Source of the DNA: a virus | Virus record (IMG/VR): IMGVR_UViG_3300032326_000687 | Span: 1 to 64,000 of that record | Strand: one strand, 5' to 3' | DNA length: 64,000 nt | Shown: in pieces, positions 20,429-63,959 of the stretch | Position numbering within the stretch: the stretch's first letter is position 1 | Layout of the letters: each line of letters begins with the position of its first letter | Program-made: the position numbers and the translations under genes | Notes under the pieces: generated by a model | The model's input: only the letters and a program-made list of their open reading frames with translations | Databases searched by the model: none | Told to the model about the DNA's origin: nothing

Positions 20429-20431
20429 GTT

Positions 20432-21736
20432 ATGAGTAAACCAACATTAGTATTTCAGGGACCTATTTTTACGAGAAGTGGATATGGGGACCATTGTAGA
20501 GATTTGATGAAATCACTACGCAAAATGGATAAATATGATATTAAGATTATCCCACTTCGTTGGGGTAACACTCCACAAAATCAAGTAACTGACCAGGATG
20601 AATTTGGTAGATGGATGCTTGAGAGAGTTACAGGAGTAGTGGAGCAAAAGCCTGATGTGTTTATGCAGGTTTCTGTAGCAAATGAATTTGAACCAAAGGG
20701 ACACTATAATATTGGTGTAACTGCCGGTGTTGAAACTACAATTTGTCCAAAAGATTTTATTGATGGTTCTAACAAAATGGATTTAGTATTAGTACCATCT
20801 CATTTTACAAGACAAAATTTAGGTGGAACCGTTTACCAACAAAAAAATCAACAAACCGATGAAATAGTTGGTGAAATTAAAGTTGTAAAACCAATTGAAG
20901 TACTTTTTGAAGGAGTTGATACCAATATATTTGAATCATCAGTACCCTCTAAAAACAATACTGATATTTTAGAAAATGTAAAAGAAGATTTTTGTTTTTT
21001 AGTTGTTGGACATTGGTTAAAAGGAGATTTAGGACAAGATAGAAAAGATATTGGTATGGCAATTAAAACATTTGCAACCGTATTCCAATATACCAAAGAA
21101 AACAAACCAGCTCTTGTAATAAAGACATCGCATGCTGGGTTTAGTGTAATGGATAGAGAAGCTACTAGAAAGAAAATTGAAGAAGTTATAAAGAGTTTTG
21201 GCGATAAGTGTCCACCTATTTATTTACTTCATGGTGATATGGAAGAAAGTGATATGAGTAATTTATACCACCATCCAAAAGTTAAAGCAATGGTATCATT
21301 TGCTAAAGGTGAAGGATATGGCAGACCAATGGCTGAATTTAGTTTGACTGGTAAACCAATTATAGCAAGTGGTTGGAGTGGACATACTGACTTTTTACCA
21401 AAAGAACACGCAGTTTTATTAGAGGGTTCGTTGACAAATGTACATGAATCGGCGGCAGACCAATTTTGTATGAAAGAAGCTCAATGGTTTACTGTAAATT
21501 ATTCAAATGCGGCAAATAAATTATATGATGTATATAAAAACTATAACACATATAAGGCACAATCTGTTGGGTTAAGAGAAAATACTCTTAAAAGTTTTAC
21601 TCTAGAAAAAATGACAGAAAGATTTGAGGAAATACTTAATACTTATGTAAAAAGAGCACCTCAAGTAGTTCCATTTAAAGCTCCTACGGTAAATAGTCAA
21701 AAGATAGAATTACCAAAACTTAAAAAAATAGGTTAA
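20432..21736 (+). CDS. Glycosyltransferase, GT4-like (GT-B fold)
   Basis: The 434-residue protein has FQGPIFTRSGYGDH at the N terminus, VLFEGVDTNIF at the linker near residue 160 and GEGYGRPMAEFSLTGKPII near residue 290, the E-x7-E donor-binding motif. It shares the layout of the preceding enzyme but is clearly diverged. The next start codon overlaps its stop as TAATG, tying it to the small protein ahead of the fibre gene. Confidence 0.87.
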   Translation: MSKPTLVFQGPIFTRSGYGDHCRDLMKSLRKMDKYDIKIIPLRWGNTPQNQVTDQDEFGRWMLERVTGVVEQKPDVFMQVSVANEFEPKGHYNIGVTAGVETTICPKDFIDGSNKMDLVLVPSHFTRQNLGGTVYQQKNQQTDEIVGEIKVVKPIEVLFEGVDTNIFESSVPSKNNTDILENVKEDFCFLVVGHWLKGDLGQDRKDIGMAIKTFATVFQYTKENKPALVIKTSHAGFSVMDREATRKKIEEVIKSFGDKCPPIYLLHGDMEESDMSNLYHHPKVKAMVSFAKGEGYGRPMAEFSLTGKPIIASGWSGHTDFLPKEHAVLLEGSLTNVHESAADQFCMKEAQWFTVNYSNAANKLYDVYKNYNTYKAQSVGLRENTLKSFTLEKMTERFEEILNTYVKRAPQVVPFKAPTVNSQKIELPKLKKIG

Positions 21737-22254
21737 TGCCATACGGAAACTTATATAATAGGCTGATACAAAGAGAATCCATAGTTCCTAAAACAAAACT
21801 AACTCCAAGACGAATTTATAAAATAGTTTCGTATGAGTATGTTGGTGGAAAACTTACTTCGTTTAATGGGCCTCAAAGTGCTATTATTTTTTTAATTAGT
21901 ATTACACCTGATAAAGTACTACATTGTATAAAGATAAGTGAAGCGCGACCTGAAAAATTCTTTCATTGGCTAAGATTAAATTTAAAAAGGGGATTGAAAT
22001 ACGATGAAATTAAAGAAATTGCAGAAAAAAATACTTTAGATGAGTTGTTATCACCCGATAATAAGATTGGTTCAAAAACATTTCAAGAATTAAAAAGACA
22101 TGGAATATACGAACATCAGCCTGGTACATATAGGACCTATTTACTTAATAATGTGAAATCCATAAAGGAAGTTAAGTTTATTACTGATGAGTTTTTAAAG
22201 TTTCTTAAGATACCAAAACCAAAGCAATCTACCCCTAAACCGGAAAATCCTTAA
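21736..22254 (+). CDS. Hypothetical protein before the fibre gene
   Basis: I do not recognise this 172-residue protein. It is basic and has mixed alpha/beta character without membrane segments, and ends in a Pro/Lys-rich tail (KIPKPKQSTPKPENP). It contains ISITPDKVLHCIKISEARPEKF. It overlaps the upstream glycosyltransferase and is followed by the fibre promoter region. A structural or fibre-assembly role is possible but not shown. Confidence 0.6.
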   Translation: MPYGNLYNRLIQRESIVPKTKLTPRRIYKIVSYEYVGGKLTSFNGPQSAIIFLISITPDKVLHCIKISEARPEKFFHWLRLNLKRGLKYDEIKEIAEKNTLDELLSPDNKIGSKTFQELKRHGIYEHQPGTYRTYLLNNVKSIKEVKFITDEFLKFLKIPKPKQSTPKPENP

Positions 22255-22318: not shown

Positions 22319-25300
22319 ATGGCAATAATAAAAAGAATACCAAAGGGTAGTCCCTTATCGGCAGCAGAAATGGATGCCAACTTGACGATTTTAGAAAACG
22401 TATCAAGTTCCGTAAATACATTATATACTACAACTGATAATTTAAATTCAACATTAACATCAGTATCTTCATCCGTATCCAATCTATCAACTTTGAGTGG
22501 ACAACTAAGCGGACAGTTTACCGGTAGTGTTTTAATTTCTGGTAGTTTAAGATTTGATAATATATCAACTGATGCGGTTGCAAACGAAGTATTGGTTTAC
22601 AATAGTTCTACAAAAACAATAGGAAAAACAACTTCAATAGCTAGTGGACCTGCTGGTACTGCTGGTAGTGGTGGTTCTTCTGGTACTTCCGGTAAAGATG
22701 GCACATCAGGAAGTTCAGGTACATCCGGTTCTTCTGGTACATCTGGTAAAGACGGTACATCTGGAAGTAGTGGTTCATCTGGTACTTCTGGAAGTAGTGG
22801 TTCTTCTGGAACATCTGGAGAGAGTGGAACTTCTGGTTCATCTGGTACTTCGGGTAGTAGTGGCTCATCTGGTACATCTGGTAAAGATGGTACATCTGGT
22901 TCATCGGGTTCATCTGGAACTTCTGGACAAAATGGTGATAGATTTTCATCAACATCAAGTTCTCCAAACGATATAAGCACTGGTTCTAAAAATTTCACAA
23001 TAGGAACTGGATTACAATGGACTCCTGGACAGGCTATTATTATTTCTGAAAATGCATCAAATGTATTAGAAGGAACTGTAACATCTTACAACAGTGGTAC
23101 AGGTGATTTGGTGGTTAATATAACAACTACATCAGGTAGTGGTACTGGTATAACTTCATGGTATATAAATACGGCAGGTGCACCTGGTCAAAGTGGTTCA
23201 TCTGGAACTTCTGGAAGCTCTGGTTCATCTGGAACTTCTGGTTCATCTGGTACATCTGGAAGTAGTGGTAGTTCTGGAACATCTGGTTCAAGTGGGTCTT
23301 CTGGTACATCCGGTAAAGATGGTACAACCGGTGTAGATGGCACTAGTGGTTCATCTGGAACTTCTGGTTCATCTGGAACTTCTGGTAGTTCTGGTTCATC
23401 TGGTACATCTGGAATAAGTGGAACTGCAGGAACTTCTGGTTTAACAACAACTGTATTCCCTTACACTGGTTCTGCACTTATTAGTGGTTCTTTACATATG
23501 ACCGGTTCTATAAAAATTGGTAAAACACAATATGGTGGTGCATTGTATGGTCCCACAATTCAGTTTTTAGATTTAGGTTCTGATTCAAGAGGAGTAGATG
23601 AAGTTACATCGTTTTTATGGTGGACTGATAAAAATGGCAATAATAAAGGTGAATTAGAAACAACTGCGGGGGCTACTGGTTTTCATAAATTGGCTATTAA
23701 AGAATTTGAAGAAATAAAGTTGAGTCCTTCCAACGCGATTACAATGACGAAATCGGTTGGTATTACTGGTTCATTATTTGTAAGTACATCTTTAAGTGCA
23801 TCTTTAAGAGAAGGATATGCTTGGGTAGGTGGTCCTAATAATAGAACAATTTTAGTAGCAACATCTTCATTTGGTAGTGCTGGTAGTGGTACTGGAATAT
23901 TTGCGGCAACCGGTTCGGTATTCGCAACAACAAACAATATACAAATCACAGGTTCTCTACAAGTAAGTGGACCTTTATCTGCTTCACTTCCACAAGGATA
24001 TGCTTGGGTTGGTGGGGTTAATGATATATCTAGAATAATAGCTACATCTTCATTTGGAGCGATAACGGTATCTCAACAAGGTGGTAGTTCGTTTGGTTCG
24101 GTTCGTACAATACGATTTAACGGAGGTGTTGTTTCGGATGATGGTGGTGGACAAGTAACTATAACAACCGGCGGTGGTGGCGGTGGACTTACAATTAATA
24201 GTGGTTCATTCTCCGCAGCAGCAACAACCACAATAACATTGGATAATACAATTCGTGCTACTAATAGTGGTGGTGGTAATGTTGCACTTACTGTAGCGGC
24301 TGGAGTAGGTGGTGGTGGTTCAAACGGTACTTCCGGTACATCTGGTAAAGATGGTGGTGGTACATCCGGTTCATCTGGAGTATCTGGTACATCTGGTAAA
24401 GATGGTACTTCTGGTAAAGATGGAGTTGGAACATCGGGTTCATCTGGTACATCTGGTATAAACGGTATTGGTGCACCTGGTACAAATGGTACTTCTGGTA
24501 TATCGGGTACAAATGGTACGGGCGAGTCCGGAACATCTGGTTCATCTGGTACCGCTGGTACATCTGGTTCATCTATCTCATTAACAGTAAATGATACTGT
24601 TGGTCCTACATCTGTTAGTGGTGTAACTCAAATAACATTCACCGGTGGTGCGGAAGTAACCAACACACCGGGTAGTGGACATATAACAATCACAGCCGGT
24701 ACTGGTGGTGGTAGTGGTTCTCCTGGAACATCTGGTAAAGATGGTACATCCGGTACATCTGGTAAAGATGGAACATTTGTTGGTTCATCTGGTACATCCG
24801 GTACATCTGGTTTTGGTAAAGATGGTACTTCTGGATCAAGTGGAGTTAATGGTACGAATGGTACATCTGGATTATCCGGGTTTATAGGTTCATCTGGTAC
24901 ATCCGGTGTTGATGGAACGTTTGTTGGTTCATCTGGTACATCCGGTGTTGATGGTTCATTTGGTTCATCTGGAACTTCTGGTAAAGATGGCACATCTGGT
25001 TCATCTGGTACAAGTGGTGTAAGTGGTACAAATGGCGTTTCTGGTAGTAATGGTTTAAATGGTGGAAATGGTTCGGATGGTACATCTGGTTCATCTGGTA
25101 AAAATGGTTTAGATGGTACTGCATTTGGTTCATCTGGTACAAGTGGTGTAAGTGGTACAAATGGTGTGGCTGGTACAAGTGGTACAAATGGCACATCTGG
25201 AACTTCTGGTGTTGCATCTTTATTAGCGGTAACCGGAAGTGTAAATAATGGATTAGTTAGGTATGAAAATGCACCTGAAAGATTATTTGTAAGTAACACA

Positions 25301-25594
25301 CTTACATTTGATGGAGCACAAATGAAATTAACAGGCTCTATGTTTGTTAGTGGTGCAATTAGTGCATCTGCATTTAACATATACGCAACGGGTACACCTG
25401 AAATAACATCAGCAACCAACTTAAATTTAACAGCTGGTACTGCGGTAATTGTAACACAATCACCAATGAGAATGGCAACGTTTACTGATGCACAAACTGG
25501 AAGTTTAACTCCTGCAAATGGAGATATGATATACAATTCAACTACTCATAAATTTATGGGATACGCGAATGGAGTTTGGGTACAATTGCATTAA
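22319..25594 (+). CDS. Collagen-like Gly-Thr-Ser-rich fibre protein
   Basis: The 1091-residue protein starts with IKRIPKGSPLSAAEMDANLT, a start typical of phage tail-fibre and structural proteins. Four collagen-like blocks of Gly-X-Y triplets (mainly GTS, GSS, GKD) cover about residues 110-206, 287-374, 668-751 and 799-965. They are separated by beta-rich, Gly/Thr/Ser-rich globular parts. A module of about 36 residues containing GYAWVGG and ATSSFG is duplicated near 484-519 and 545-580. The C terminus (SLTPANGDMIYNSTTHKFMG) resembles ends of trimeric fibres. It probably forms a trimeric fibre used in host attachment. The abundant Ser/Thr and nearby glycosyltransferases make O-glycosylation plausible. 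A subtilisin-like gene follows after 6 nt. Confidence 0.85.
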   Translation: MAIIKRIPKGSPLSAAEMDANLTILENVSSSVNTLYTTTDNLNSTLTSVSSSVSNLSTLSGQLSGQFTGSVLISGSLRFDNISTDAVANEVLVYNSSTKTIGKTTSIASGPAGTAGSGGSSGTSGKDGTSGSSGTSGSSGTSGKDGTSGSSGSSGTSGSSGSSGTSGESGTSGSSGTSGSSGSSGTSGKDGTSGSSGSSGTSGQNGDRFSSTSSSPNDISTGSKNFTIGTGLQWTPGQAIIISENASNVLEGTVTSYNSGTGDLVVNITTTSGSGTGITSWYINTAGAPGQSGSSGTSGSSGSSGTSGSSGTSGSSGSSGTSGSSGSSGTSGKDGTTGVDGTSGSSGTSGSSGTSGSSGSSGTSGISGTAGTSGLTTTVFPYTGSALISGSLHMTGSIKIGKTQYGGALYGPTIQFLDLGSDSRGVDEVTSFLWWTDKNGNNKGELETTAGATGFHKLAIKEFEEIKLSPSNAITMTKSVGITGSLFVSTSLSASLREGYAWVGGPNNRTILVATSSFGSAGSGTGIFAATGSVFATTNNIQITGSLQVSGPLSASLPQGYAWVGGVNDISRIIATSSFGAITVSQQGGSSFGSVRTIRFNGGVVSDDGGGQVTITTGGGGGGLTINSGSFSAAATTTITLDNTIRATNSGGGNVALTVAAGVGGGGSNGTSGTSGKDGGGTSGSSGVSGTSGKDGTSGKDGVGTSGSSGTSGINGIGAPGTNGTSGISGTNGTGESGTSGSSGTAGTSGSSISLTVNDTVGPTSVSGVTQITFTGGAEVTNTPGSGHITITAGTGGGSGSPGTSGKDGTSGTSGKDGTFVGSSGTSGTSGFGKDGTSGSSGVNGTNGTSGLSGFIGSSGTSGVDGTFVGSSGTSGVDGSFGSSGTSGKDGTSGSSGTSGVSGTNGVSGSNGLNGGNGSDGTSGSSGKNGLDGTAFGSSGTSGVSGTNGVAGTSGTNGTSGTSGVASLLAVTGSVNNGLVRYENAPERLFVSNTLTFDGAQMKLTGSMFVSGAISASAFNIYATGTPEITSATNLNLTAGTAVIVTQSPMRMATFTDAQTGSLTPANGDMIYNSTTHKFMGYANGVWVQLH
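22646..22936 (+). repeat. Coding triplet repeat, collagen block 1
   Basis: 9-nt units reading Gly-Thr-Ser or Gly-Ser-Ser (variants of GGTACATCT and GGTTCATCT) occur in tandem with GKD interruptions. Codon choice varies between units, which limits but does not exclude slippage. Confidence 0.9.
23177..23440 (+). repeat. Coding triplet repeat, collagen block 2
   Basis: Tandem Gly-Ser-Ser/Gly-Thr-Ser units encode about residues 287-374 of the fibre. This is the most regular of the four blocks. Confidence 0.9.
24320..24571 (+). repeat. Coding triplet repeat, collagen block 3
   Basis: Gly-X-Y units with more GKD, GTN and GIN triplets encode about residues 668-751 of the fibre. Confidence 0.85.
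24713..25213 (+). repeat. Coding triplet repeat, collagen block 4 (longest)
   Basis: Gly-X-Y units with short interruptions such as TFVG, SFG and TAFG encode about residues 799-965 of the fibre. Interruptions in collagen-like regions usually give bends or flexible points. Confidence 0.85.
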
Positions 25595-27893: not shown

Positions 27894-28887
27894 AATAGCC
27901 TTCCTTACTGAAATGGGGTTTATTGGTAAAATACCGGCACATCATCCAAATATGAGAACCGAATTTGCTTGGATGCACGCTTTAGATGCAGACCATTATA
28001 ACATTCATCTATTTGGTGCGGATAAAAATTTGATTAACTATGACCACATCTTTATAATATTTCCAAAAGGTAAAGTATTTTTAAGTGCAGAAGGGAGTAA
28101 AATTATAGATGGTATTAATCCATTTTCGGAATTACTACAACAAGATATAGTTGGTAAATTGAAGGAAAGAGGTAATAAAAAAGTACATTATATCCAAGAA
28201 GGACCTCATTGGTGGTATAACGATTATAGTATATCAGACCAAGTTTATTTTTATAATTTCTTAGCAAGTTGTGATTCAATATTCACACACAACGATTCGG
28301 ATGTATATTACTACAAAGGATTGCTTCCAAACAAACCTGTAAGACCTATTGGTACATTAATGATTGATACTTTAATCAAAGATATTGTACCTACAAAAGA
28401 AGATAAAGCAATAATAGGTGGTAACTTTGCAAGATGGTATGGTGGATTTGAAAGTTATATGATAGCTGGTAATTTTGAAGTTCCTATTTGGGCTCAAACA
28501 TCACATGCTATGAGAGAGAATGAAGATGTAATTGATAATTTAACTCACTTACCAAGATTAATGTGGAGTGAATGGATGCAAAATTTATCAACATTCAAAT
28601 ACGCAGTTCATATGATGCCAACGGTAGCAGCTGGTACGTTTGCCCTAAATTGTGCATACTTTGGTATCCCTTGTATTGGAAATCAAGATGTAGATACTCA
28701 ATTACTTTGTCACCCATCTTTATCGGTAGCTGTAAATGATTTAGAAAGTGCAAGAGAATTGGCAATACAATTGAGAGATGATAAAGAGTTTTATAATCAA
28801 TGTTCAGAAATGGCAAAAGATAATTATGAAGCTTGTTTCTCAAAAGAAATTTGGTTAAGAAATATAAAAAGAGAATTGGGTATATGA
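27880..28887 (+). CDS. Probable glycosyltransferase (GT-B-like)
   Basis: The 335-residue protein starts IQSKIAFLTEMGFIGKI; I chose ATG 27880 over an in-frame TTG at 27850. The second half has IIGGNFARWYGGFESYMIA and TVAAGTFALNCAYFGIPCIG, then a DLESARELA helix. This is the layout of the donor-binding domain in GT-B enzymes. No precise family was recognised. It overlaps the upstream GT2 gene and the downstream small gene, so it is co-translated with them. Confidence 0.65.
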   Translation: MIQSKIAFLTEMGFIGKIPAHHPNMRTEFAWMHALDADHYNIHLFGADKNLINYDHIFIIFPKGKVFLSAEGSKIIDGINPFSELLQQDIVGKLKERGNKKVHYIQEGPHWWYNDYSISDQVYFYNFLASCDSIFTHNDSDVYYYKGLLPNKPVRPIGTLMIDTLIKDIVPTKEDKAIIGGNFARWYGGFESYMIAGNFEVPIWAQTSHAMRENEDVIDNLTHLPRLMWSEWMQNLSTFKYAVHMMPTVAAGTFALNCAYFGIPCIGNQDVDTQLLCHPSLSVAVNDLESARELAIQLRDDKEFYNQCSEMAKDNYEACFSKEIWLRNIKRELGI

Positions 28888-29039
28888 TTAAGGCACTAAA
28901 AAGCAGATTGACAATGAAGCCAACTGGTGCATCTTTTATGGATGTTGTAACTTGGGATTTAGTTCAGTATTGGGAAGATTGCTACGGAGATAAATGGATG
29001 GCGGTATCTAAATGGGGAACTAGAATTAAAATAGATTAA
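28884..29039 (+). CDS. Small hypothetical protein
   Basis: This is a 51-residue ORF whose ATG at 28884 overlaps the preceding stop. It contains MKPTGASFMDVVTWDLVQYWEDCYGDK-type aromatic and acidic residues. Nothing similar was recognised. The tight spacing on both sides (overlap upstream, 3 nt downstream) supports that it is real. Confidence 0.55.
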   Translation: MIKALKSRLTMKPTGASFMDVVTWDLVQYWEDCYGDKWMAVSKWGTRIKID

Positions 29040-29042
29040 ATT

Positions 29043-29813
29043 ATGATAACAGTTATATTAAATGGTTACAAAAGAGCGGAAAATCTTAATGAACAATTGG
29101 AGGCATTAAGAAACCAAACGGTTCAACCGGATGAAATACTTTTTTGGTATAATAATCCTGGTGATAATGATTTGATTAATTACGATATTGGTGCTGAAAT
29201 ACCAGGAGCATATTGTAATTACAACTTCGGTGTATGGGCACGATTTGCTTTTGCATTTATGGCTAAAAATCCATATGTTTGTATTTTTGATGATGATACT
29301 ATACCTGGTTCAAAATGGTTAGAGAATTGCATGAATACAATGAAAACGAATGAAGGACTATTGGGTACGGTTGGATTAATTTATCCACAACCACTTCCAC
29401 CGGAACAATCATCATACTACGAACCATATGCTAGAGTTGGTTGGCCTGAAGGTGGAAATAATGAACATACATTAGAAGTTGATTTGGTTGGGCATAGTTG
29501 GTTCTTTAAAAAGGAATGGTTATCTCATATGTGGAGAGAACAACCTGAATCTAAATATAATACCTGTGGTGAAGATATGCACTTCTCATATATGTTGCAG
29601 AAGTATGCGGGAATTAAAACATTTGTACCACCACATCCAAAGAATGATAAACAAATGTGGGGAAGTATAAAAGGAGCACAATATGGTGGTGATGCTAACT
29701 CACTATGGGAATCAAATCAGAGAAGTGTGGAAGGTGTACCATTTAGAGCATTAATGAATGAGTATTTTCATAATCAAAGAATAAAAGGTTGGAAATTAGT
29801 ATATGAAAAGTAA
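29043..29813 (+). CDS. Glycosyltransferase, GT2-like (GT-A fold)
   Basis: The 256-residue protein begins ITVILNGYKRAENLNEQLEA and has a DDD metal motif in CIFDDDTIPGSKWLE near residue 85, followed by the acceptor-side DLVGHSWFFKKEWL and CGEDMHFSYMLQKY. This matches the GT2 pattern. It overlaps the 2-epimerase gene by 11 nt. Confidence 0.87.
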   Translation: MITVILNGYKRAENLNEQLEALRNQTVQPDEILFWYNNPGDNDLINYDIGAEIPGAYCNYNFGVWARFAFAFMAKNPYVCIFDDDTIPGSKWLENCMNTMKTNEGLLGTVGLIYPQPLPPEQSSYYEPYARVGWPEGGNNEHTLEVDLVGHSWFFKKEWLSHMWREQPESKYNTCGEDMHFSYMLQKYAGIKTFVPPHPKNDKQMWGSIKGAQYGGDANSLWESNQRSVEGVPFRALMNEYFHNQRIKGWKLVYEK

Positions 29814-30807
29814 AGACCCAATATTAATATGTTTTGGTACTAGACCAGAATGGTTGAAAGTAAAACCATTGATTGATATTATGGATAAGAAAGAATATAA
29901 ACTCTTATTCACAGGTCAACATGAAGATTTACTTAAAGATGTGCGAGTTGATTTTACAGTTAAGATAGAAGAAACGTTTCGTCATACTAGATTAGATTCT
30001 ATTATGATTGGTTGTATGGAATATTTTCCAAATTATAAATTTAGTGGTGTGTTGGTGCAAGGTGATACGGCTTCCGCTTTTGCATGTGCATTAGCAGCTT
30101 ATCATAGAGGTATTAAGATATATTATATGGAAGCTGGTTTAAGGAGTTACGATTTAGAAAACCCATATCCTGAAGAAGGGTATAGGCAGATGATAGCTCG
30201 TTTAGCAGATATTAATTTTGCACCAACACAACTATCTGCTGAAAATTTAGATGCTGAAAGAGTAAAAGGTGATATTCATATTGTTGGAAATACCGTATTG
30301 GATAATCTTATGAAATATGAGAAGGGTGATTATGGTGATACTATTTTGGTAACAATGCATCGTAGAGAAAATCATCATTGGTTAGACGAATGGTTTAACG
30401 ATATTAATCAGTTAGCAATTGATTATCCACAATACAAATTCATATTACCCATCCATCCAAATCCAAATGTACAAAAGCACAAACATTTACTAACGAGCAT
30501 AAATGTTGTAGAACCTTTAACACACGATGAAACAATTAACATTCTTAAAGATTGTAAGTTGGTAATAACCGATAGTGGAGGTCTGCAAGAAGAAGGTTCA
30601 TTCTTTAATAAGAAAGTAATTGTATGCAGAAAAACAACGGAAAGACCTGAAGGTATCCAAACGGGACATCTTTATATGTGCGAAGAGCCAATCAAACTTA
30701 AACAATTATTTGGTGAGTTGGAAAAGAATTCGTATATTTGTAAACCGTGTCCATATGGAGACGGTAGAGCGGCAGAAAAAATTAAAAAGATATTAGATGC
30801 AGAATAA
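29803..30807 (+). CDS. wecB: UDP-N-acetylglucosamine 2-epimerase-like
   Basis: The 334-residue protein has FGTRPEWLKVKPLI at the N terminus, VQGDTASAFACALAA, MEAGLRSYDLENPYPEE, VTMHRRENHHW, and DSGGLQEEGSFFNKKVIV. These are hallmarks of the non-hydrolysing UDP-GlcNAc 2-epimerase that makes UDP-ManNAc. It would supply a donor sugar for the surrounding glycosyltransferases. It is slightly shorter than bacterial WecB (about 375). A full promoter lies inside its 3' end. Confidence 0.88.
   Translation: MKSKDPILICFGTRPEWLKVKPLIDIMDKKEYKLLFTGQHEDLLKDVRVDFTVKIEETFRHTRLDSIMIGCMEYFPNYKFSGVLVQGDTASAFACALAAYHRGIKIYYMEAGLRSYDLENPYPEEGYRQMIARLADINFAPTQLSAENLDAERVKGDIHIVGNTVLDNLMKYEKGDYGDTILVTMHRRENHHWLDEWFNDINQLAIDYPQYKFILPIHPNPNVQKHKHLLTSINVVEPLTHDETINILKDCKLVITDSGGLQEEGSFFNKKVIVCRKTTERPEGIQTGHLYMCEEPIKLKQLFGELEKNSYICKPCPYGDGRAAEKIKKILDAE
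30709..30740 (+). promoter_or_regulatory. Internal Bacteroidota-type promoter
   Basis: TTTG (30709-30712), 20 nt and TATATTTG (30733-30740), with the extended TTTGGT and TTCG bases, lie inside the 3' end of the 2-epimerase gene. They are 56 nt ahead of the next start codon. Confidence 0.65.
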
Positions 30808-31519
30808 ATTTCAAACAGATTTTGAATATTATACCAATCTTATAAAATCAGATACAAATTTTGCTTATGCAAGATATGCTGACGGTGAAGTTGGTTTGAT
30901 GAAAGGTAACGCAATTGGTACTAATTCGCAGGCATTTGCAGTTGATAGATGGACTACTCCAATTGGATTAAATAAAGTTGGTGAAGGTTTATTAAAATCA
31001 TTGGAACATACCGAAACCAATTACCATTATGCAATATCAGCTCATTCAGATAGCATTGATGATTATACCTTCTTATCAGATAGAATTCAAAACTCAAATA
31101 AAACTTTTGCAAATCTTTGGATAAATTCAAATTATCAAAAGATGTATGAGTTTTATAAAACATTGGATAAGAGTGTATATGTTATATGTAACCATAGAGC
31201 TAGGAAAGAAAATTTTCCATTTAAAGTAAATGAAATATTTCCATTTCCAGATGATTGTATAAGATATTGGTTAGATTATGGTGAGGACTATATTACACAA
31301 CTAATTGAATATGTATCCCAGTTAGAGAATCAAACATTTTTTGTATCTGCCGGCCCTGTTTCTGAAATACTAATAGATGAGATGTATAGAGCTAATCCAA
31401 ATAACCAATATGTAGATGTTGGTTCTTCTATTGATGAATTTACACATGGTAGAAAAACAAGACCTTATATGGACTCATCTTCACAATACTCAAAAGAAAT
31501 ATCTTATTTTTATGAATAA
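30797..31519 (+). CDS. Possible GT-D-type glycosyltransferase (DUF1792-like)
   Basis: The 240-residue protein has ARYADGEVGLMKGN near residue 26, ICNHRARKENFP in the middle and FVSAGPVSEILIDEM followed by YVDVGSSIDEF near residue 205. A D-G-E motif early and a VDVGSS strand late resemble the GT-D fold of DUF1792 glycosyltransferases. The match is by pattern only. It overlaps its neighbours by 11 and 8 nt inside the glycan block. Confidence 0.55.
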   Translation: MQNKFQTDFEYYTNLIKSDTNFAYARYADGEVGLMKGNAIGTNSQAFAVDRWTTPIGLNKVGEGLLKSLEHTETNYHYAISAHSDSIDDYTFLSDRIQNSNKTFANLWINSNYQKMYEFYKTLDKSVYVICNHRARKENFPFKVNEIFPFPDDCIRYWLDYGEDYITQLIEYVSQLENQTFFVSAGPVSEILIDEMYRANPNNQYVDVGSSIDEFTHGRKTRPYMDSSSQYSKEISYFYE

Positions 31520-32207
31520 ATTACCGTTAGTAATATACACACATACCGATATGAAAGATGTGTGGCCGTCTTTTTTTGGGCAATTAAATAAATTTATGCC
31601 TGATTATAAACTCTATGTATGTGTTAATGAGCTTGATAAGGCACTTCCAGAAAATTGCTTACAAATCACATATGATGATTCTAAAAAATATACAAATCGT
31701 ATTTTAGAATGTTTGGATAAAATAAATGAAGATGTGATATTATTTTTTCACGAAGACATGATTTTGTATTCTAGTCCACTTCACAATTATTTGGAAAAAT
31801 ATTACGAGCATGTTTTAACCGATAAAGCTAATAGTATAAAATTATTATACGCTGGCTCAGGCGGAATAAAATCCGAATTTGAAGATACATTGGTTCAAAA
31901 TGATTTATCTAAATTTTCGGTACAACCAACTATTATTAAAATTAAAGCATTTAGAGAGTTAATAGAAAATCATTTAGAATTAACAATTTATGAATTTGAA
32001 GATTCTATAAAATTGAATGATAAAGATTTTTCAGCAACAAATGGTAGTGAGAAAAAAAGAGGAATATTCCATTATGATAGTTTTGTATTTCCATATATAG
32101 CAACTGCAATTAATAAAGGTAAATGGAACTTAACTGAATATCAAAATGAATTAAATCCTATATTTGAAGAATATGGTATAAATCCATTTGATAGAGGAAT
32201 TTGGTAA
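31512..32207 (+). CDS. Probable glycosyltransferase
   Basis: The 231-residue protein begins NKLPLVIYTHTDMKDVWP; ATG 31512 overlaps the preceding gene by 8 nt. LFFHEDMILYSS near residue 75 can serve as the metal/donor motif of a GT-A enzyme, and FHYDSFVFPYIATAINKGKW near the C terminus resembles acceptor regions. No family name can be given with certainty. The context is strongly glycan-related. Confidence 0.55.
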   Translation: MNKLPLVIYTHTDMKDVWPSFFGQLNKFMPDYKLYVCVNELDKALPENCLQITYDDSKKYTNRILECLDKINEDVILFFHEDMILYSSPLHNYLEKYYEHVLTDKANSIKLLYAGSGGIKSEFEDTLVQNDLSKFSVQPTIIKIKAFRELIENHLELTIYEFEDSIKLNDKDFSATNGSEKKRGIFHYDSFVFPYIATAINKGKWNLTEYQNELNPIFEEYGINPFDRGIW

Positions 32208-32217
32208 ATTTTTAAAT

Positions 32218-33582
32218 ATGACAAAATTAATTATCTTTGACTTAGATGGTGTGCTAGTTGAAGCAAAACAAATACACTACGATACATTAAATCAAGCTCT
32301 AAAAGAAGTTGGTAACGAATATGTTATTACGGAGGCAGAACATCTTTCAACTTATGATGGATTGAAAACAAATCAAAAGTTGGATATGCTAACTAAAGCA
32401 AAAGGATTACCAAAAGATGTTCATGAACAGGTTTGGAATAGAAAACAACACTTAACAATTGAAGCAATATCCCAATTACAAACCAATCACGTATTGGTTT
32501 CAGTATTTAAAGAATTGAGAGATAGAGGTTATCAATTAGCATGTGCTTCAAACTCAATTAGAAGGTCTGTATTGGTTATGTTATCAAAGATAGGTCTTAT
32601 TGAGTATATGGATTTAATCATCTCTAATGAGGATGTAAAGAACTCTAAACCACATCCTGAAATGTATTGGAAGGCTATGAGTATGATGGGAGTATTGCCG
32701 GAAGAAACTCTTATTGTAGAAGATTCTCCACATGGCTTATTAGCAGCAAGTAGAAGTAGAGCAAATGTATTGAGAGTGGATAACCCACATGATTTGACAT
32801 TAGAAAAAATAACAAACAAATTAAACGAAAATAAAATTATGAGTATTCCAAAATGGCAAGGTGGTAAGATGAATGTTCTTATCCCAATGGCAGGAGCGGG
32901 AAGTAGATTCCAAGCGGCAGGTTATACGTTTCCAAAACCACTAATTGATGTAGAAGGTAAACCAATGATTCAGGTTGTGGTTGATAACTTAAATATAGAT
33001 GCTACATACATTTATGTAGTGCAAAAAGAGCATAGAGCAAAATACAATTTAGATACATTATTAAATCTAATCACACCTAATTGTAAGATTGTAGAAGTAG
33101 ATGGTTTAACCGAAGGAGCGGCGTGTACAACTTTATTAGCAAAGGAATTTATTGATAACGATGCACCATTGGTTATGGCAAATTCTGACCAATTTGTAGA
33201 GTGGGATTCCAATGAGTTTATGTATAAGATGATTGAACAAAAAGTGGATGGTGGTATTGTAACATTTACGGCAACACATCCTAAATGGTCATTCGCTAAA
33301 GTAGATGAGTATGGATATGTTACCGAAGTAGCAGAGAAGAATCCAATTTCGGATATTGCAACTGTTGGTGTTTACTATTGGGCTAAAGGTTCTGATTATG
33401 TAAAGTATGCAGAACAAATGATTAGTAAGAATATTAGAACCAACAATGAGTTCTATACTTGCCCAACTTTTAACGAAGCAATTGGAGATGGTAAAAAAAT
33501 TAAAACATTTAACATTGATAAGATGTGGGGATTGGGTACACCTGAAGATTTAAAATATTATTTAGAAAATTACAATAAATAA
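32218..33582 (+). CDS. HAD phosphatase/phosphomutase fused to sugar nucleotidyltransferase
   Basis: The 454-residue protein has two domains. Residues 1-210 form a HAD hydrolase of beta-phosphoglucomutase type, with FDLDGVLVEAK, ACASNSIRRS and EDSPHGLLAA. Residues 225-454 form a nucleotidyltransferase, with VLIPMAGAGSRFQAAGYTFPKPLIDV and NSDQFVEW. Fusion suggests that one protein carries out consecutive steps from a sugar phosphate to an NDP-sugar. I chose ATG 32218; an in-frame start 30 nt upstream is less likely. Confidence 0.85.
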   Translation: MTKLIIFDLDGVLVEAKQIHYDTLNQALKEVGNEYVITEAEHLSTYDGLKTNQKLDMLTKAKGLPKDVHEQVWNRKQHLTIEAISQLQTNHVLVSVFKELRDRGYQLACASNSIRRSVLVMLSKIGLIEYMDLIISNEDVKNSKPHPEMYWKAMSMMGVLPEETLIVEDSPHGLLAASRSRANVLRVDNPHDLTLEKITNKLNENKIMSIPKWQGGKMNVLIPMAGAGSRFQAAGYTFPKPLIDVEGKPMIQVVVDNLNIDATYIYVVQKEHRAKYNLDTLLNLITPNCKIVEVDGLTEGAACTTLLAKEFIDNDAPLVMANSDQFVEWDSNEFMYKMIEQKVDGGIVTFTATHPKWSFAKVDEYGYVTEVAEKNPISDIATVGVYYWAKGSDYVKYAEQMISKNIRTNNEFYTCPTFNEAIGDGKKIKTFNIDKMWGLGTPEDLKYYLENYNK

Positions 33583-37547: not shown

Positions 37548-37814
37548 ATGGGCGTAGCAATCGTTATAGTAGACTGTACAAAACAGGATATCAATAAGGC
37601 TCTAAAAGAATTCAAAAGAAAGGTAATCAAATCCGGACACATTATGGAATTGAGAGACCGAAAAGAATATACAAAACCCACAACTGAAAAAAGGGAACAA
37701 AAACAAAAAGCTATTAGAAAGAGCCAGAGGGATGTTATATTAGATAAAATAGCCGCTGGAATTTTACCAACATCTACATTAAGCGGAAAGACAAAAAAAT
37801 CAAATAATTTTTAA
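37548..37814 (+). CDS. rpsU: Ribosomal protein bS21-like (phage-encoded)
   Basis: The 88-residue basic protein carries the bS21 core INKALKEFKRKVIKSGHI followed by ELRDRKEYTKPTTEKREQKQ, closely following the bacterial pattern (ALRRFKR.. G...E.R.R..Y.KPT..R). The C terminus extends about 20 residues beyond usual Bacteroidota bS21. bS21 sits near the 16S rRNA 3' end. In Bacteroidota it helps hide the anti-Shine-Dalgarno sequence. A phage copy could replace host bS21 and bias initiation toward phage messages. The next gene has a rare purine-rich Shine-Dalgarno-like sequence. Confidence 0.88.
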   Translation: MGVAIVIVDCTKQDINKALKEFKRKVIKSGHIMELRDRKEYTKPTTEKREQKQKAIRKSQRDVILDKIAAGILPTSTLSGKTKKSNNF

Positions 37815-54241: not shown

Positions 54242-54652
54242 ATGGCATACGGAGAAAAGGTAATAGACCATTACCAAAACCCGCGCAATGTTGGTACGTT
54301 GGATAAAAGTAAATCAACGGTGGGGACAGGGTTAGTTGGAGCACCTGAATGTGGTGATGTGATGAGACTCCAAATAGAGATTGAAGATGGAATCATAACC
54401 GATGCGAAATTTAAAACGTTTGGATGTGGTTCGGCAATTGCTGCATCTTCCCTAGCAACTGAATGGTTAAAGGGTAAGAGTGTGGATGAGGCGGCAAAGT
54501 TAGATAATATGGATTTGGTTGAGGAATTATCTCTACCACCTGTTAAGATACATTGTTCGGTTCTTGCACAAGATGCGGTTCAAGCTGCTATTAACGATTA
54601 TAGAACAAAGAATGGTTTAGAGCCATTACAATTTGAAGAAAAACTACACTAA
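54242..54652 (+). CDS. iscU: Fe-S cluster scaffold IscU
   Basis: The 136-residue protein has all three cluster-binding cysteines: C37 in GAPECGDVM, C62 in FGCGSAIAASS and C105 in KIHCSVLA, plus D39. The LPPVK motif (residues 98-102) that binds the HscA chaperone is intact. IscU assembles [2Fe-2S] clusters on the scaffold from IscS sulfur. The complete set of functional residues suggests it works. Phage copies are rare. An A-type carrier lies two genes downstream. Confidence 0.95.
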   Translation: MAYGEKVIDHYQNPRNVGTLDKSKSTVGTGLVGAPECGDVMRLQIEIEDGIITDAKFKTFGCGSAIAASSLATEWLKGKSVDEAAKLDNMDLVEELSLPPVKIHCSVLAQDAVQAAINDYRTKNGLEPLQFEEKLH

Positions 54653-55152: not shown

Positions 55153-55485
55153 ATGGTAACACTACAACCTAAAGCATTAGAGCATGTAATTGAATTAATG
55201 GTGGAAGGTGGTTTAACACCTGATACGCATAACTTACGAGTTGGTGTGAAGGGTGGTGGATGTAGTGGATTATCTTACACAATGGATTTTGATGATAAGA
55301 TAGAACCAACCGATGAAGTAGTTCAGGTGGATGGTGGATTGAAAGTAGTAATTGATAGAAAGAGTTTACTATACCTTTATGGTACTCAATTAACATATTC
55401 AGATGGATTAAATGGTAAAGGATTCCAATGGGAAAATCCAAACGCAAGTAGAACGTGTGGATGTGGTGAATCATTCTCTTTATGA
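55153..55485 (+). CDS. A-type Fe-S carrier protein (IscA/ErpA-like)
   Basis: The 110-residue protein has the three conserved cysteines: C37 in [12 protein letters not shown] and C102, C104 in [10 protein letters not shown]. The family carries Fe-S clusters or iron to target proteins. Together with iscU it gives the phage two steps of cluster assembly. It overlaps the next small membrane gene by 4 nt (ATGA). Confidence 0.94.
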
Positions 55486-58114: not shown

Positions 58115-58762
58115 ATGACAGAAGTATTAATTTTCTTAAACATTATGATACTAGAGATAGTATTGAGTATTGATAACGCAGCCGTATTAGCAGCGATGGT
58201 AAAAGAACTACCAAAGAATGAACAAAAGAAAGCCTTAACATATGGTATTGCTGGTGCGTATCTATTTAGAGGATTGGCATTACTATTCGCATCTCTATTA
58301 GTACAATTAGTGTGGTTAAAAGTAGTAGGTGGGCTATACCTAATTTATTTGGCATATAAAGCCCTATTCGGAAAATCGGAAAATGGTGATAGTGGTATGA
58401 ATGTAAAGATAGGTTGGTTATCACCACTTTGGTCTACAATCGTAGCAATTGAGATGATGGATTTGGTATTTAGTATTGATAATGTATTCGCCGCAGTGGC
58501 ATTCACTCCCAATCTCTGGTTGATATGTGGTGGTGTGTTTGTTGGTATCCTTGCTATGAGATTCGCAACAACAAAGTTTGTGAAAGTATTAGAGAAGAAT
58601 CCTATATTAGAGAAAGTAGCATATTGGGTAATTGGGGCATTGGGATTGAAGTTAGTATCATCATATTGGTTACATGATTTGAATACTGAAAGTATTGACG
58701 CAGTATTTTCAATCTTAACCTTATTAGCATTTATAATACCTTTAATAATAAAAAAGAAATAA
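58115..58762 (+). CDS. TerC-family membrane protein
   Basis: The 215-residue protein has about seven membrane segments and the two TerC blocks: EIVLSIDNAAVLAAMVKELP near residue 13 and MMDLVFSIDNVFAAVAFTPN near 113. The repeated SIDN motifs with acidic residues are typical of TerC/YkoY proteins linked to metal (manganese) export. In a phage it may alter metal levels or membrane protein folding of the host. Confidence 0.9.
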   Translation: MTEVLIFLNIMILEIVLSIDNAAVLAAMVKELPKNEQKKALTYGIAGAYLFRGLALLFASLLVQLVWLKVVGGLYLIYLAYKALFGKSENGDSGMNVKIGWLSPLWSTIVAIEMMDLVFSIDNVFAAVAFTPNLWLICGGVFVGILAMRFATTKFVKVLEKNPILEKVAYWVIGALGLKLVSSYWLHDLNTESIDAVFSILTLLAFIIPLIIKKK

Positions 58763-58765
58763 GTT

Positions 58766-59029
58766 ATGCATAACCCCTTTTGTTATATCGGTTGTCACAA
58801 CTGGGAATACCGAAAAGAAAAACATCAATGTACCAATCATCCACAAAATAGGGATGTTATTAGAGTCATTGTTAGAGAATGTAAATGGTGTGGACATAGA
58901 GAGCACCACTCACTTCCAAGAATTGGACGTAAGTTTACTCTATGGAAACCCTTTGATGATATTGGTAAAGACGATTGTGTAGATATTAAAAGATTAATAG
59001 ATGATATTCAGAACGAGAAAATTAATTAA
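58766..59029 (+). CDS. Small Cys/His-rich phage protein
   Basis: The 87-residue protein has CYIGCHNWEYRKEKHQC and ECKWCGHREHHSLPRIG, two Cys/His groups that fit zinc binding, as in DUF1660-like phage proteins. It overlaps the thioesterase gene by 29 nt. Confidence 0.65.
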   Translation: MHNPFCYIGCHNWEYRKEKHQCTNHPQNRDVIRVIVRECKWCGHREHHSLPRIGRKFTLWKPFDDIGKDDCVDIKRLIDDIQNEKIN

Positions 59030-59393
59030 GCCAGAAGATTTAAATGCCAGAGGTACACTATTTGGTGGACAGGTATTGAAGTGGATAGATGAGGAAGCAT
59101 CCATATTTACAATTTGCCAATTGGGTGAACGTAGTATTGTTACAAAGGCAATGAGTGAAATCAACTTTGTATCATCCGCCAAAACAGGTGATATTATTGA
59201 GATAGGCTGTGAGTTAGTACAATTTGGTACAACATCAGTAACTATAAGTTGCGAAGTACGAAACAAAGATACCAAACAAACAATTATTAAAATTGATAAA
59301 ATTGTATTTGTTGCAGTAGATGAAAACGGAAGACCAAAGCCACACAATAAACCATCCGATGAAGATGATTTAAGATTTGAAACATATAATTAA
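59001..59393 (+). CDS. Acyl-CoA thioesterase (hotdog fold, YciA-like)
   Basis: The 130-residue protein has LNARGTLFGGQVLKWIDEEA, the hotdog catalytic helix with D and E, then VTKAMSEINFVSSAKTGDII and CEVRNKDT. This is the hexameric acyl-CoA thioesterase pattern. It hydrolyses acyl-CoA and could alter host lipid supply. The start at 59001 lies inside the upstream gene and begins directly before the conserved helix. Confidence 0.88.
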   Translation: MIFRTRKLIKPEDLNARGTLFGGQVLKWIDEEASIFTICQLGERSIVTKAMSEINFVSSAKTGDIIEIGCELVQFGTTSVTISCEVRNKDTKQTIIKIDKIVFVAVDENGRPKPHNKPSDEDDLRFETYN

Positions 59394-62462: not shown

Positions 62463-63026
62463 ATGTTACCATTAAAAGAAGCCATAGCTGAAAAGCACTC
62501 TTTGGCAGAAAAGATGACATTCAATCAAAGAATGTTTAAAGGAGAATTATCAAACGAAGAATACGTTTTATATTTGTGTCAGCAATTGGCAATATTTGAT
62601 GCAATTGAAGTACATGAATTACCACACCCAGCTTTAGATAGAGCTGGTAAGGTATTTGAGGATATTAAAGAGTTGATGGGAGAAACTCAAATTCAAATTA
62701 CACCATTGGTAGCAACGAATGAATATCGTAAATACCTTCGTACATTGAGTAAAGAAGAAATACTTCCACATGTTTACCTAAACTACTTAGCAATTATGTT
62801 TGGTGGACAGATGATGAAAAAGAATGTACCTGGTAGTGGTAAGATGTATGAGTTTGAGGGTGATGTTAGAGAAATTGCCGGAACGATTAGAGCAATTCAA
62901 AAAGATGAATGGGCAGATGAAGCAAACAAGGCATTGGATTACAACATAAACATATTAGATGAATTACAAAGAGTATCTGAATCAGCTAGCGTGGACATTG
63001 AAGGAGATGGTGGAGAAGGCGCCTAA
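62463..63026 (+). CDS. hemO: Heme oxygenase (biliverdin-forming)
   Basis: The 187-residue helical protein has the proximal heme ligand H12 in EKHSLAEKMTF, then FKGELSNEEYVLYLCQQLAI (the usual EYxxYL helix) and the distal helix HVYLNYLAIMFGGQMMKK near residue 107. The layout is that of biliverdin-producing heme oxygenases, which open heme to biliverdin, CO and iron using ferredoxin electrons. The distal helix differs from the common GDLSGG form: it reads AIMFGG, so the Gly and Asp of the classic motif are replaced by Ala and Ile. The next gene is a bilin reductase that would use the biliverdin. The 68-nt overlap implies coupled translation. Confidence 0.87.
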   Translation: MLPLKEAIAEKHSLAEKMTFNQRMFKGELSNEEYVLYLCQQLAIFDAIEVHELPHPALDRAGKVFEDIKELMGETQIQITPLVATNEYRKYLRTLSKEEILPHVYLNYLAIMFGGQMMKKNVPGSGKMYEFEGDVREIAGTIRAIQKDEWADEANKALDYNINILDELQRVSESASVDIEGDGGEGA

Positions 63027-63588
63027 TTGCCAACCATTAGAAACCGAAGATTATGGATGGGATAACTTTAGATATGAATCAAAGTTATTTCGTATGGCTC
63101 ACGTGGAAAGATATGGTGATGGTAAAATAGAAGTACTACACTTTACAACATTCCCACATAAAGATTCACCAGAGCCTATTTTTGGATTTGATGTTATATC
63201 AACTGAAAAAATGGTAACGGGTGCATATATGGATTTGAGTCCTGGTCTTAAAACATATCCTTTTGATAATGGTATGGATTTTAAAGAAAGGAAAAAAATA
63301 CCTGAATGGGCTACTGTATTCTCTGACCGTTTTATTATGTTAAAACCTGAATCCGATGAGGAATTGGTTCGTTTTTGTAATTGGGTAGTGGACAAATACG
63401 ATTGGTATCTCAATTCATTACTTTGGCTAGAGAATAAAACTGATAATATTGAAGGTGTAATAGAGAAACAAAATATTTATTGTCAAATACAGGCTACTAA
63501 TCCAAGAACGTTTTCGGCATTGAAAGCTCTAATTGGTGAAGAAAAGGCTCGTTACTTTATGGAAAACATTTTATTCCCAAAGATATGA
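62959..63588 (+). CDS. Ferredoxin-dependent bilin reductase (PcyA/PebS/PcyX superfamily)
   Basis: The 209-residue protein has IEVLHFTTFPHKDSPEPIFG then FDVISTEKMVTGAYMDLSPG (residues 77-96) with the conserved Asp D78, WATVFSDRFIMLKP near 117 and the closing YCQIQATNPRT (174-184) with LIGEEKARYFMENILFP. This matches the FDBR family, which reduces biliverdin IXalpha to phycobilins with ferredoxin electrons. It lies directly after heme oxygenase, as in the phage hemO-pebS and hemO-pcyX pairs. The exact product (phycoerythrobilin, phycocyanobilin or an intermediate) cannot be read from this. Start 62959 overlaps hemO by 68 nt; an in-frame ATG at 63010 is an alternative. It is shorter than many FDBRs (about 230-250). 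Confidence 0.85.
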   Translation: MNYKEYLNQLAWTLKEMVEKAPNCQPLETEDYGWDNFRYESKLFRMAHVERYGDGKIEVLHFTTFPHKDSPEPIFGFDVISTEKMVTGAYMDLSPGLKTYPFDNGMDFKERKKIPEWATVFSDRFIMLKPESDEELVRFCNWVVDKYDWYLNSLLWLENKTDNIEGVIEKQNIYCQIQATNPRTFSALKALIGEEKARYFMENILFPKI

Positions 63589-63959
63589 CACCAAAAAGAA
63601 TATACATAGATTTTGGAACACCCATAGAACAATGGGCAGATGCGAATAAGGGAGTGATAATGGATTCAATATACTCCAATGTATTTGATTTTCTTCAATC
63701 AGATGAAGATGATAGAGTAATATTGCAAGTTACTCCTAAATTGGCACAAAAACCAAAAGCACCAAGAACATTTGAACCACCTATTAATGTTGATTTTATA
63801 ATATCAAAAGATGATATAGATTTAACCTTAAAGAAAATGATGGATTATTATATTGAGGTTGAAGAATATGAAAAATGTGCAGAAATACTTAAACTGCAAA
63901 ATGAGAAAGATAATCCAAAACCAAAGAAAAAAAGAGGAAGAAAACCTAAAAATATTTAA
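63585..63959 (+). CDS. Hypothetical protein with basic AT-hook-like tail
   Basis: The 124-residue protein begins TPKRIYIDFGTPIEQWADAN and ends with PKPKKKRGRKPKNI, which contains an AT-hook-like RGRKP core that binds AT-rich DNA in known proteins. The overlap with the bilin reductase stop codon (4 nt) suggests the same operon. Function is unknown. Confidence 0.6.
   Translation: MTPKRIYIDFGTPIEQWADANKGVIMDSIYSNVFDFLQSDEDDRVILQVTPKLAQKPKAPRTFEPPINVDFIISKDDIDLTLKKMMDYYIEVEEYEKCAEILKLQNEKDNPKPKKKRGRKPKNI

Follow-up and report, generated by a model that had tools for sequence, protein, structure and literature searches.

The window analyzed here (64,000 nucleotides; bases 1-64000 of a 67,863-base IMG/VR virus record) carries overlapping genes for a heme oxygenase (HO) and a ferredoxin-dependent bilin reductase (FDBR), and the two genes are a conserved unit under purifying selection in the window's phage lineage, group A, whose hosts are probably Bacteroidota. 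We propose, with about even confidence, that these large phages carry a two-enzyme unit for heme breakdown, of which the release of iron is the likeliest benefit. HO would open host heme to give biliverdin, Fe2+, and CO, and FDBR, drawing electrons from host ferredoxin, would convert biliverdin most likely to phycocyanobilin. The infecting phage would gain a full route of heme breakdown with its iron freed, and removal of biliverdin by FDBR would keep HO turning over. Withdrawal of biliverdin would relieve product hold-up of HO.

Results

The HO and FDBR genes of the window

In Pfam profile searches, both proteins score above the cut-offs of their families: HO matches PF01126 (E 8.3e-15, 55.6 bits, cut-off 23), and FDBR matches PF05996 (E 3.6e-22, 79.6 bits, cut-off 31). 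FDBR also matches PHROG 7278, annotated as "ferredoxin oxidoreductase" (E 1.5e-22), and the sole PHROG for HO is a weak one, phrog_17328 (E 2.9e-4). The AlphaFold2 model of HO (mean pLDDT 90.7) has Synechocystis HO-1 as its top match in the PDB (1we1, TMq 0.81, E 3.6e-8). That of FDBR (mean pLDDT 88.6) has PcyA (2g18, TMq 0.85, E 1.9e-13), followed by PcyX, PebB, PebA, HY2-type enzymes, and PebS; among solved FDBRs, PcyX 5owg comes closest in sequence. With these Pfam, PHROG, and fold matches, an assignment by chance can be rejected. A preliminary description of this DNA had already read the overlapping genes as HO and FDBR and had named, beforehand, profile and structure tests by which the second assignment should be judged; the protein exceeds its profile cut-off, and its predicted fold is that of PcyA.

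The two genes overlap by 68 nt in different frames, and the start of FDBR is conserved in near relatives (MNYKEYLN, MNYNEYLN, MNYTEYLD). Among the matches listed, a homologue of the 124-aa gene that comes next (Table 1) directly follows FDBR in L003, L004, L008, and L010 and lies one gene further away in L005 and L009. Promoter-like sites around the pair are at chance level (15 versus 12.4 in shuffled sequence), and no terminator was found there. Two genes upstream of the pair are retained in several relatives; one encodes a membrane protein (58115-58762) that matches phrog_7180 and by eye resembles TerC, and the other a thioesterase-superfamily protein (59001-59393; PF03061). Elsewhere, at 22319-25594, the window encodes a 1091-aa collagen-repeat protein (PF01391). 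ARAGORN found neither tmRNA nor tRNA in window positions 1-64000.

Table 1. Features of the window and of related phage records, with the evidence for each
Feature	Position	Strand	Evidence and remarks
HO	62463-63026	+	187 aa; PF01126, HO-1 1we1 model match, residues
FDBR	62959-63588	+	209 aa; PF05996, PcyA 2g18 model match, residues
124-aa protein	63585-63959	+	start overlaps FDBR stop; no Pfam match over cut-off
IscU/NifU-like Fe-S scaffold	54242-54652	+	phrog_8429, E 9.6e-43; PF01592
IscA-like Fe-S protein	55153-55485	+	PF01521, 59.9 bits, cut-off 26.3
bS21-like ribosomal protein (host clue)	37548-37814	+	PF01165, 45.2 bits, cut-off 27
TonB-dependent receptor	L012:8749-12009 (G002 28749-32009)	+	CarboxypepD_reg and Plug domains
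TonB-dependent receptor	G006 29891-32263; G007 19524-21872		

Linkage and selection in group A

Group A comprises 30 contigs (L117-L140 and L176-L181), some of them near-identical, that reach 274 kb. The 273,997-base contig has a terminase match, and its FDBR is 98% identical to that of the window. HO overlaps FDBR in all 30 contigs, by 4-68 nt in L117-L140, and the pair is constant while the flanking genes differ across the group. In L131-L133, L138, and L139 it lies between genes that by eye resemble thymidylate synthase and GroES/GroEL, an arrangement unlike that of the window. An IMG/VR scan with the HO query gave 37 viral loci, 36 of which have FDBR; the contig of the exception, L152, stops 25 nt past HO. 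Every group A FDBR found with FDBR queries was accompanied by its HO, and the four FDBR loci at which no HO was detected (L187, L195, L199, and L201) are PcyX-like and lie on pieces shorter than 6 kb. A search of plasmids for FDBR gave no match. Estimates of dN/dS, made for 11 pairs from 12 sequences per gene with the overlap region excluded, range from 0.05 to 0.18 for FDBR and from 0.05 to 0.22 for HO, and are rough because many dS values exceed 1.

Some other genes of these contigs deserve mention. In L136, a superoxide-dismutase-like gene (by eye; 1784-2431) lies two genes upstream of HO. In the 274-kb relative G002, ARAGORN reports 26 tRNA genes (L015:5230-12009) and a tmRNA with an unusual tag (L019:11074-11460), both downstream of the pair's region, and the structural region of G002 contains open frames of 3069-4184 aa.

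FDBR active site and predicted product

Catalysis by Synechocystis PcyA needs Glu76, His88, and Asp105, according to the available passages of PMC10151467. The window FDBR has Glu50, His61, and Asp78 at these places, and therewith Glu in place of the PcyX-type Asp (Asp55 of PcyX). The Glu-His-Asp set is present in 24/24 group A representatives and in 6/6 cyanobacterial or cyanophage PcyA rows, and Asp-His-Asp in 19/19 rows of the PcyX branch, to which Mosig and 5owg belong. Three of the 53 representatives have Lys-His-Asp, and PebS has Val-Asn-Asp.

The preliminary description had called for an FDBR tree that includes PebS, PcyA, and PcyX, and in the trees built here group A forms its own branch beside PcyX. 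After the 87-aa fragment L218 was dropped, removal of rows at least 95% identical left 53 of 104 rows, a set that excludes alphaproteobacterial PcyA, pre-PcyA, and CB_2. Group A is a single branch (96/99; 86/97, unstarred, under a mixture model), and its split from cyanobacterial PcyA is supported at 95/96. The PcyX rows likewise form their own branch (99/97 and 97/95), with the window FDBR outside it. The node that makes group A sister to the PcyX and Lys rows is weak (86/62 and 94/70) and is a point at which long branches join.

Because group A FDBR keeps the Glu-His-Asp set of PcyA, and because the enzyme of phage CB_2, in which the PcyX Asp is likewise missing, yields phycocyanobilin according to the accessible text of PMC11480375, we predict that the group A product is phycocyanobilin. 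This stays a prediction since the enzyme adjoins PcyX, not cyanobacterial PcyA, in the tree. A separate branch (100/100) consists of FDBRs that have Lys in place of Glu76 (L141, L143-L151, and L153); at these loci HO is followed by small genes and then by FDBR, and the HOs read GELHGGQ.

A heme oxygenase without the distal acid

The proximal His12 is invariant among 22 aligned phage HOs. The distal helix of the window HO reads NYLAIMFGGQ and lacks the canonical Asp. AIMFGGQ or a near variant is found in this helix in all 30 group A HOs, which have Ala at the Gly139 place and Ile or Leu at the Asp140 place, whereas the latter place is Asp in 34 and Glu in 12 of the 46 other phage HO loci; near-copies were kept within both sets of this count, and the repeat contigs L003-L010, L169-L175, and L182 were left out. 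The distal Asp is also missing from five host-family HOs. As reported in the parts of PMC7948506 at hand, Asp140His reduces the activity of human HO-1, and plant HO, which has neither Asp140 nor Arg136, is functional through a different hydrogen-bond path. Since the Asp-less plant enzyme works and five host-family HOs share the loss, group A HO is likely to be an active enzyme.

In the HO tree, group A is one branch (100/100) separate from host HOs, the latter represented by the five of 12 host-family HO loci tried that match the phage HO profile. Recent capture of a host phytochrome-linked HO can be rejected on this ground. PcyX-associated HOs and Lys-type HOs each do not form a single branch.

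Host assignment

Shine-Dalgarno-like sites precede 1/71 genes in the window (3.5 in shuffled sequence), 13/237 in the 274-kb relative (11.5), and 4/49 in Cellulophaga phage phi38:1 (2.3), versus 61/197 in Microcystis phage Mel-JY01 (21.9), 17/54 in cyanophage P-SSM4 (7.4), and 25/56 in pelagiphage Mosig (9.7); the controls phi38:1, P-SSM4, and Mosig are one phage each, at 50 kb apiece. The fraction of A at -12/-11 is 0.75/0.63 in the window, 0.70/0.65 in the 274-kb relative, and 0.61/0.69 in phi38:1, versus 0.36-0.48 in Mel-JY01, P-SSM4, and Mosig. Five further group A records, analyzed in part, gave 3/69 (5.0 shuffled), 5/58 (4.0), 7/62 (4.0), 6/30 (2.3), and 5/70 (3.8), with counts somewhat raised in G598 and less so in G596 and with A fractions of 0.49-0.78. 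The Lys-type phage records have a Shine-Dalgarno excess (29/56 versus 12.3 shuffled and 22/38 versus 7.8; A 0.34-0.37).

TonB-dependent receptors (PF25183; Table 1) are encoded in three of nine records, G002, G006, and G007. By title, 73 of the best 80 of 136 related stretches are from Bacteroidota, and the others are from Gemmatimonadota (4), Acidobacteriota (1), Aminicenantes (1), and Williamsia (1); within these 80, the top identities are 54-50%, with Ferruginibacter among them. The Williamsia label of G009 is doubtful, as G009 is placed in the same family as the Ferruginibacter genome. An outer-membrane receptor is an odd gene for a phage to carry, and it might serve for receptor swapping or superinfection exclusion; in G002 the gene runs opposite to most others.

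Signal peptides ending in xQ are typical of Bacteroidota. In five group A sets, signal-peptide-like starts of this kind number 5, at least 6, 5, 5, and at least 6, including two or more false ones; the Lys-type sets have 1 and 0. The bS21-like gene on which the preliminary description drew is real (Table 1), and the nearest solved chains to its product are 9i5v and 7jil, the latter presumably from Flavobacterium johnsoniae, with others close (the E-value of 7qg8 is of the order of that of 7jil). A counter-clue is the Tyr54 place of bS21, which in the window is apparently Arg (by eye).

Taken together, these data suggest a Bacteroidota host for group A, as the preliminary description had supposed; it had also named evidence for a cyanobacterium as what would speak against its reading, and the evidence favors Bacteroidota. 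The missing Shine-Dalgarno excess and the TonB receptors are better host evidence than the promoters that it had relied on. The motif TAnnTTTG is enriched upstream of genes in the window (12/60 versus 2.6 shuffled) but does not discriminate, since it is enriched in Mel-JY01 as well (20/155 versus 7.7). Mel-JY01 (PP395634.1), the recorded host of which is Microcystis elabens, has the Bacteroidota-like group A lineage as its closest kin by DNA polymerase. It carries bS21, and no photosynthesis gene was seen in its annotation; a literature search found no paper naming this phage.

Genes of the host family and of the phage records

PF05996 was found in 0/395 Bacteroidota genomes sampled across the phylum, with a positive Synechococcus control, and in 0/195 sampled genomes of the Ferruginibacter family. 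The pair therefore does not copy a pathway of the host, and phycocyanobilin would, as far as sampled, be foreign to host cells. Within the Ferruginibacter family, PHY is present in 32/195 genomes, HO in 33/195, and both in 30. The 19 phage records have no match to PHY, to the 2Fe-2S ferredoxin family PF00111, or to 5-aminolevulinate synthase (alaS, TIGR01821), many of these records being fragments. An IscU-like gene is present in 10/19 (G000-G003, G005-G008, G594, and G595); none was found in 6/16 group A records (G004, G592, G593, and G596-G598) or in 3/3 Lys-type records, and here too many records are fragments.

Discussion

Breakdown of heme for its iron is the purpose that best fits these observations, and the prediction is strengthened by the IscU- and IscA-like proteins that the phage also encodes. 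Counting against it are the lost distal Asp of the 30 group A HOs, the records in which no IscU-like gene was found (many of them fragments), the lack of a PF00111 ferredoxin match in the 19 records, and the place of FDBR beside PcyX. The reading has to be weighed against four others. A cyanobacterial host in which the pair serves phycobilisomes, as it does in cyanophages, is extremely improbable. The idea draws on Mel-JY01, which is the nearest isolate by DNA polymerase (47.8% over 850 aa) and has a similar order of replication genes; however, the difference in Shine-Dalgarno usage leads us to reject a host assignment through this kinship, Mel-JY01 is absent from the phage records that match FDBR or HO, the TonB receptors have mostly Bacteroidota relatives, and FDBR lies outside the cyanobacterial branch. 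A role in light sensing, in which phycocyanobilin is given to a host phytochrome or biliverdin is withdrawn from it and signaling is altered, is quite unlikely and is the least supported of the three roles that the preliminary description had offered (chromophore supply, iron release, and antioxidant). The three host-family phytochromes read have no Cys at the phycocyanobilin-binding GAF place, and the N terminus of the L156 phytochrome is of the biliverdin type. A PHY match is missing in 163/195 Ferruginibacter-family genomes, which makes phytochrome supply unlikely as a general reason, and no PHY match was found in the 19 phage records. The 30 genomes of this family with both PHY and HO would nonetheless offer a target, and CB_2 phage PcyA was able to supply a phytochrome in Escherichia coli, as related in the accessible part of PMC11480375.

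The remaining two readings concern the enzymes themselves. It is unlikely, in our judgment, that group A HO is non-canonical, giving another product or mainly binding heme, while the substrate of FDBR is a different tetrapyrrole or biliverdin made by the host. The replacement of Asp140 in every group A HO, at a place that is acidic in all 46 other phage loci, and the weakening of human HO-1 by Asp140His (PMC7948506, in part) argue for such a reading; the working plant HO, the five host-family HOs with the same loss, the invariant proximal His, and the purifying selection on the gene argue against it. Rather unlikely, too, is that the reduced bilin is itself the point, as an antioxidant or in another infection-specific use in a heterotroph. 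Retention of the reductase in 30/30 group A contigs exceeds what iron release alone would need, and a superoxide-dismutase-like gene (by eye) lies by the pair in L136, but no bilin-binding partner was found in a search for PHY only. A combined outcome is possible though doubtful, namely a complete heme-to-phycocyanobilin route new to a phylum lacking FDBR, begun by an HO with a rebuilt, acid-free distal pocket and ending in a reduced bilin that, in addition to the iron, would serve infection of a heterotroph in some way other than light harvesting.

If the host assignment is right, phage bilin genes extend beyond the viruses of cyanobacteria and proteobacteria. Since the pair is present in every group A contig seen, FDBR was found in none of 395 genomes sampled from the phylum, and most genomes of the best candidate host family have no phytochrome, phycobilisomes can be set aside as the reason for it, and the release of iron, removal of heme, or a novel use of bilin become testable. 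The Asp-less HO offers a natural test of oxygen activation in HO. The CB_2 paper (PMC11480375, accessible text) does not settle the reason for bilin synthesis in phages of non-photosynthetic bacteria.

Comparison with known systems

The FDBR of cyanophages is in part similar, in that phage PcyA has the same Glu-His-Asp set, but cyanophage PcyA and PebS form a separate branch, serve photosynthetic hosts, and are 25-29% identical to the window FDBR among the matches listed. The bS21 phages of freshwater Bacteroidetes resemble group A in size (to 331 kb), in bS21, and in their predicted hosts, and differ at the Tyr54 place, which is aromatic in those phages (PMC9723584, as far as available) and by eye apparently Arg in the window; "heme" and "bilin" are both absent from the main text of that paper. 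An HO transcript from a Lake Baikal virus fraction is listed, with no host given, in the portion of PMC9611531 at hand. Searchable passages of the open-licence PMC literature yielded no paper on an HO/FDBR pair in Bacteroidota phages.

Pelagibacter phage Mosig is the top match of the window FDBR among 50,697 phage records (34.3%) and one of three for HO (29.1%), and, as in other marine phages with HO and PcyX, its two genes are adjacent. Its PcyX has Asp at the Glu76 place, where group A has Glu; its HO reads GDLSGGQ, compared with AIMFGGQ; and its host is Shine-Dalgarno-using, whereas the window has no excess of such sites. Another close system is vHemO/vPcyA of CB_2, again an HO encoded together with an FDBR by a large phage whose host is non-photosynthetic (PMC11480375, in part), in this case a freshwater phage with Methylocystis as predicted host (PMC7674155, in part). 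Its measured activities lead from heme to biliverdin to phycocyanobilin, and its FDBR, compared here by description, lacks the PcyX Asp like that of group A (both from the available text of PMC11480375). CB_2 also carries alaS, as far as its published description is available, and the published hemO-pcyA/X-alaS cassette has three genes, whereas alaS is found in none of our 19 records, many of which are fragments. With the Mosig and CB_2 pairs in print (PMC11480375, accessible text), the earlier proposal of a new host phylum for bilin synthesis stands, but group A would not be the first lineage with a host that lacks phycobilisomes. HO/FDBR pairs of cyanophages, Mosig, and CB_2 are already published; to these group A adds a host phylum that is probably new, a branch of FDBRs that lie beside phage PcyX but have the active site of PcyA, and a lineage of HOs in which the distal acid is missing.
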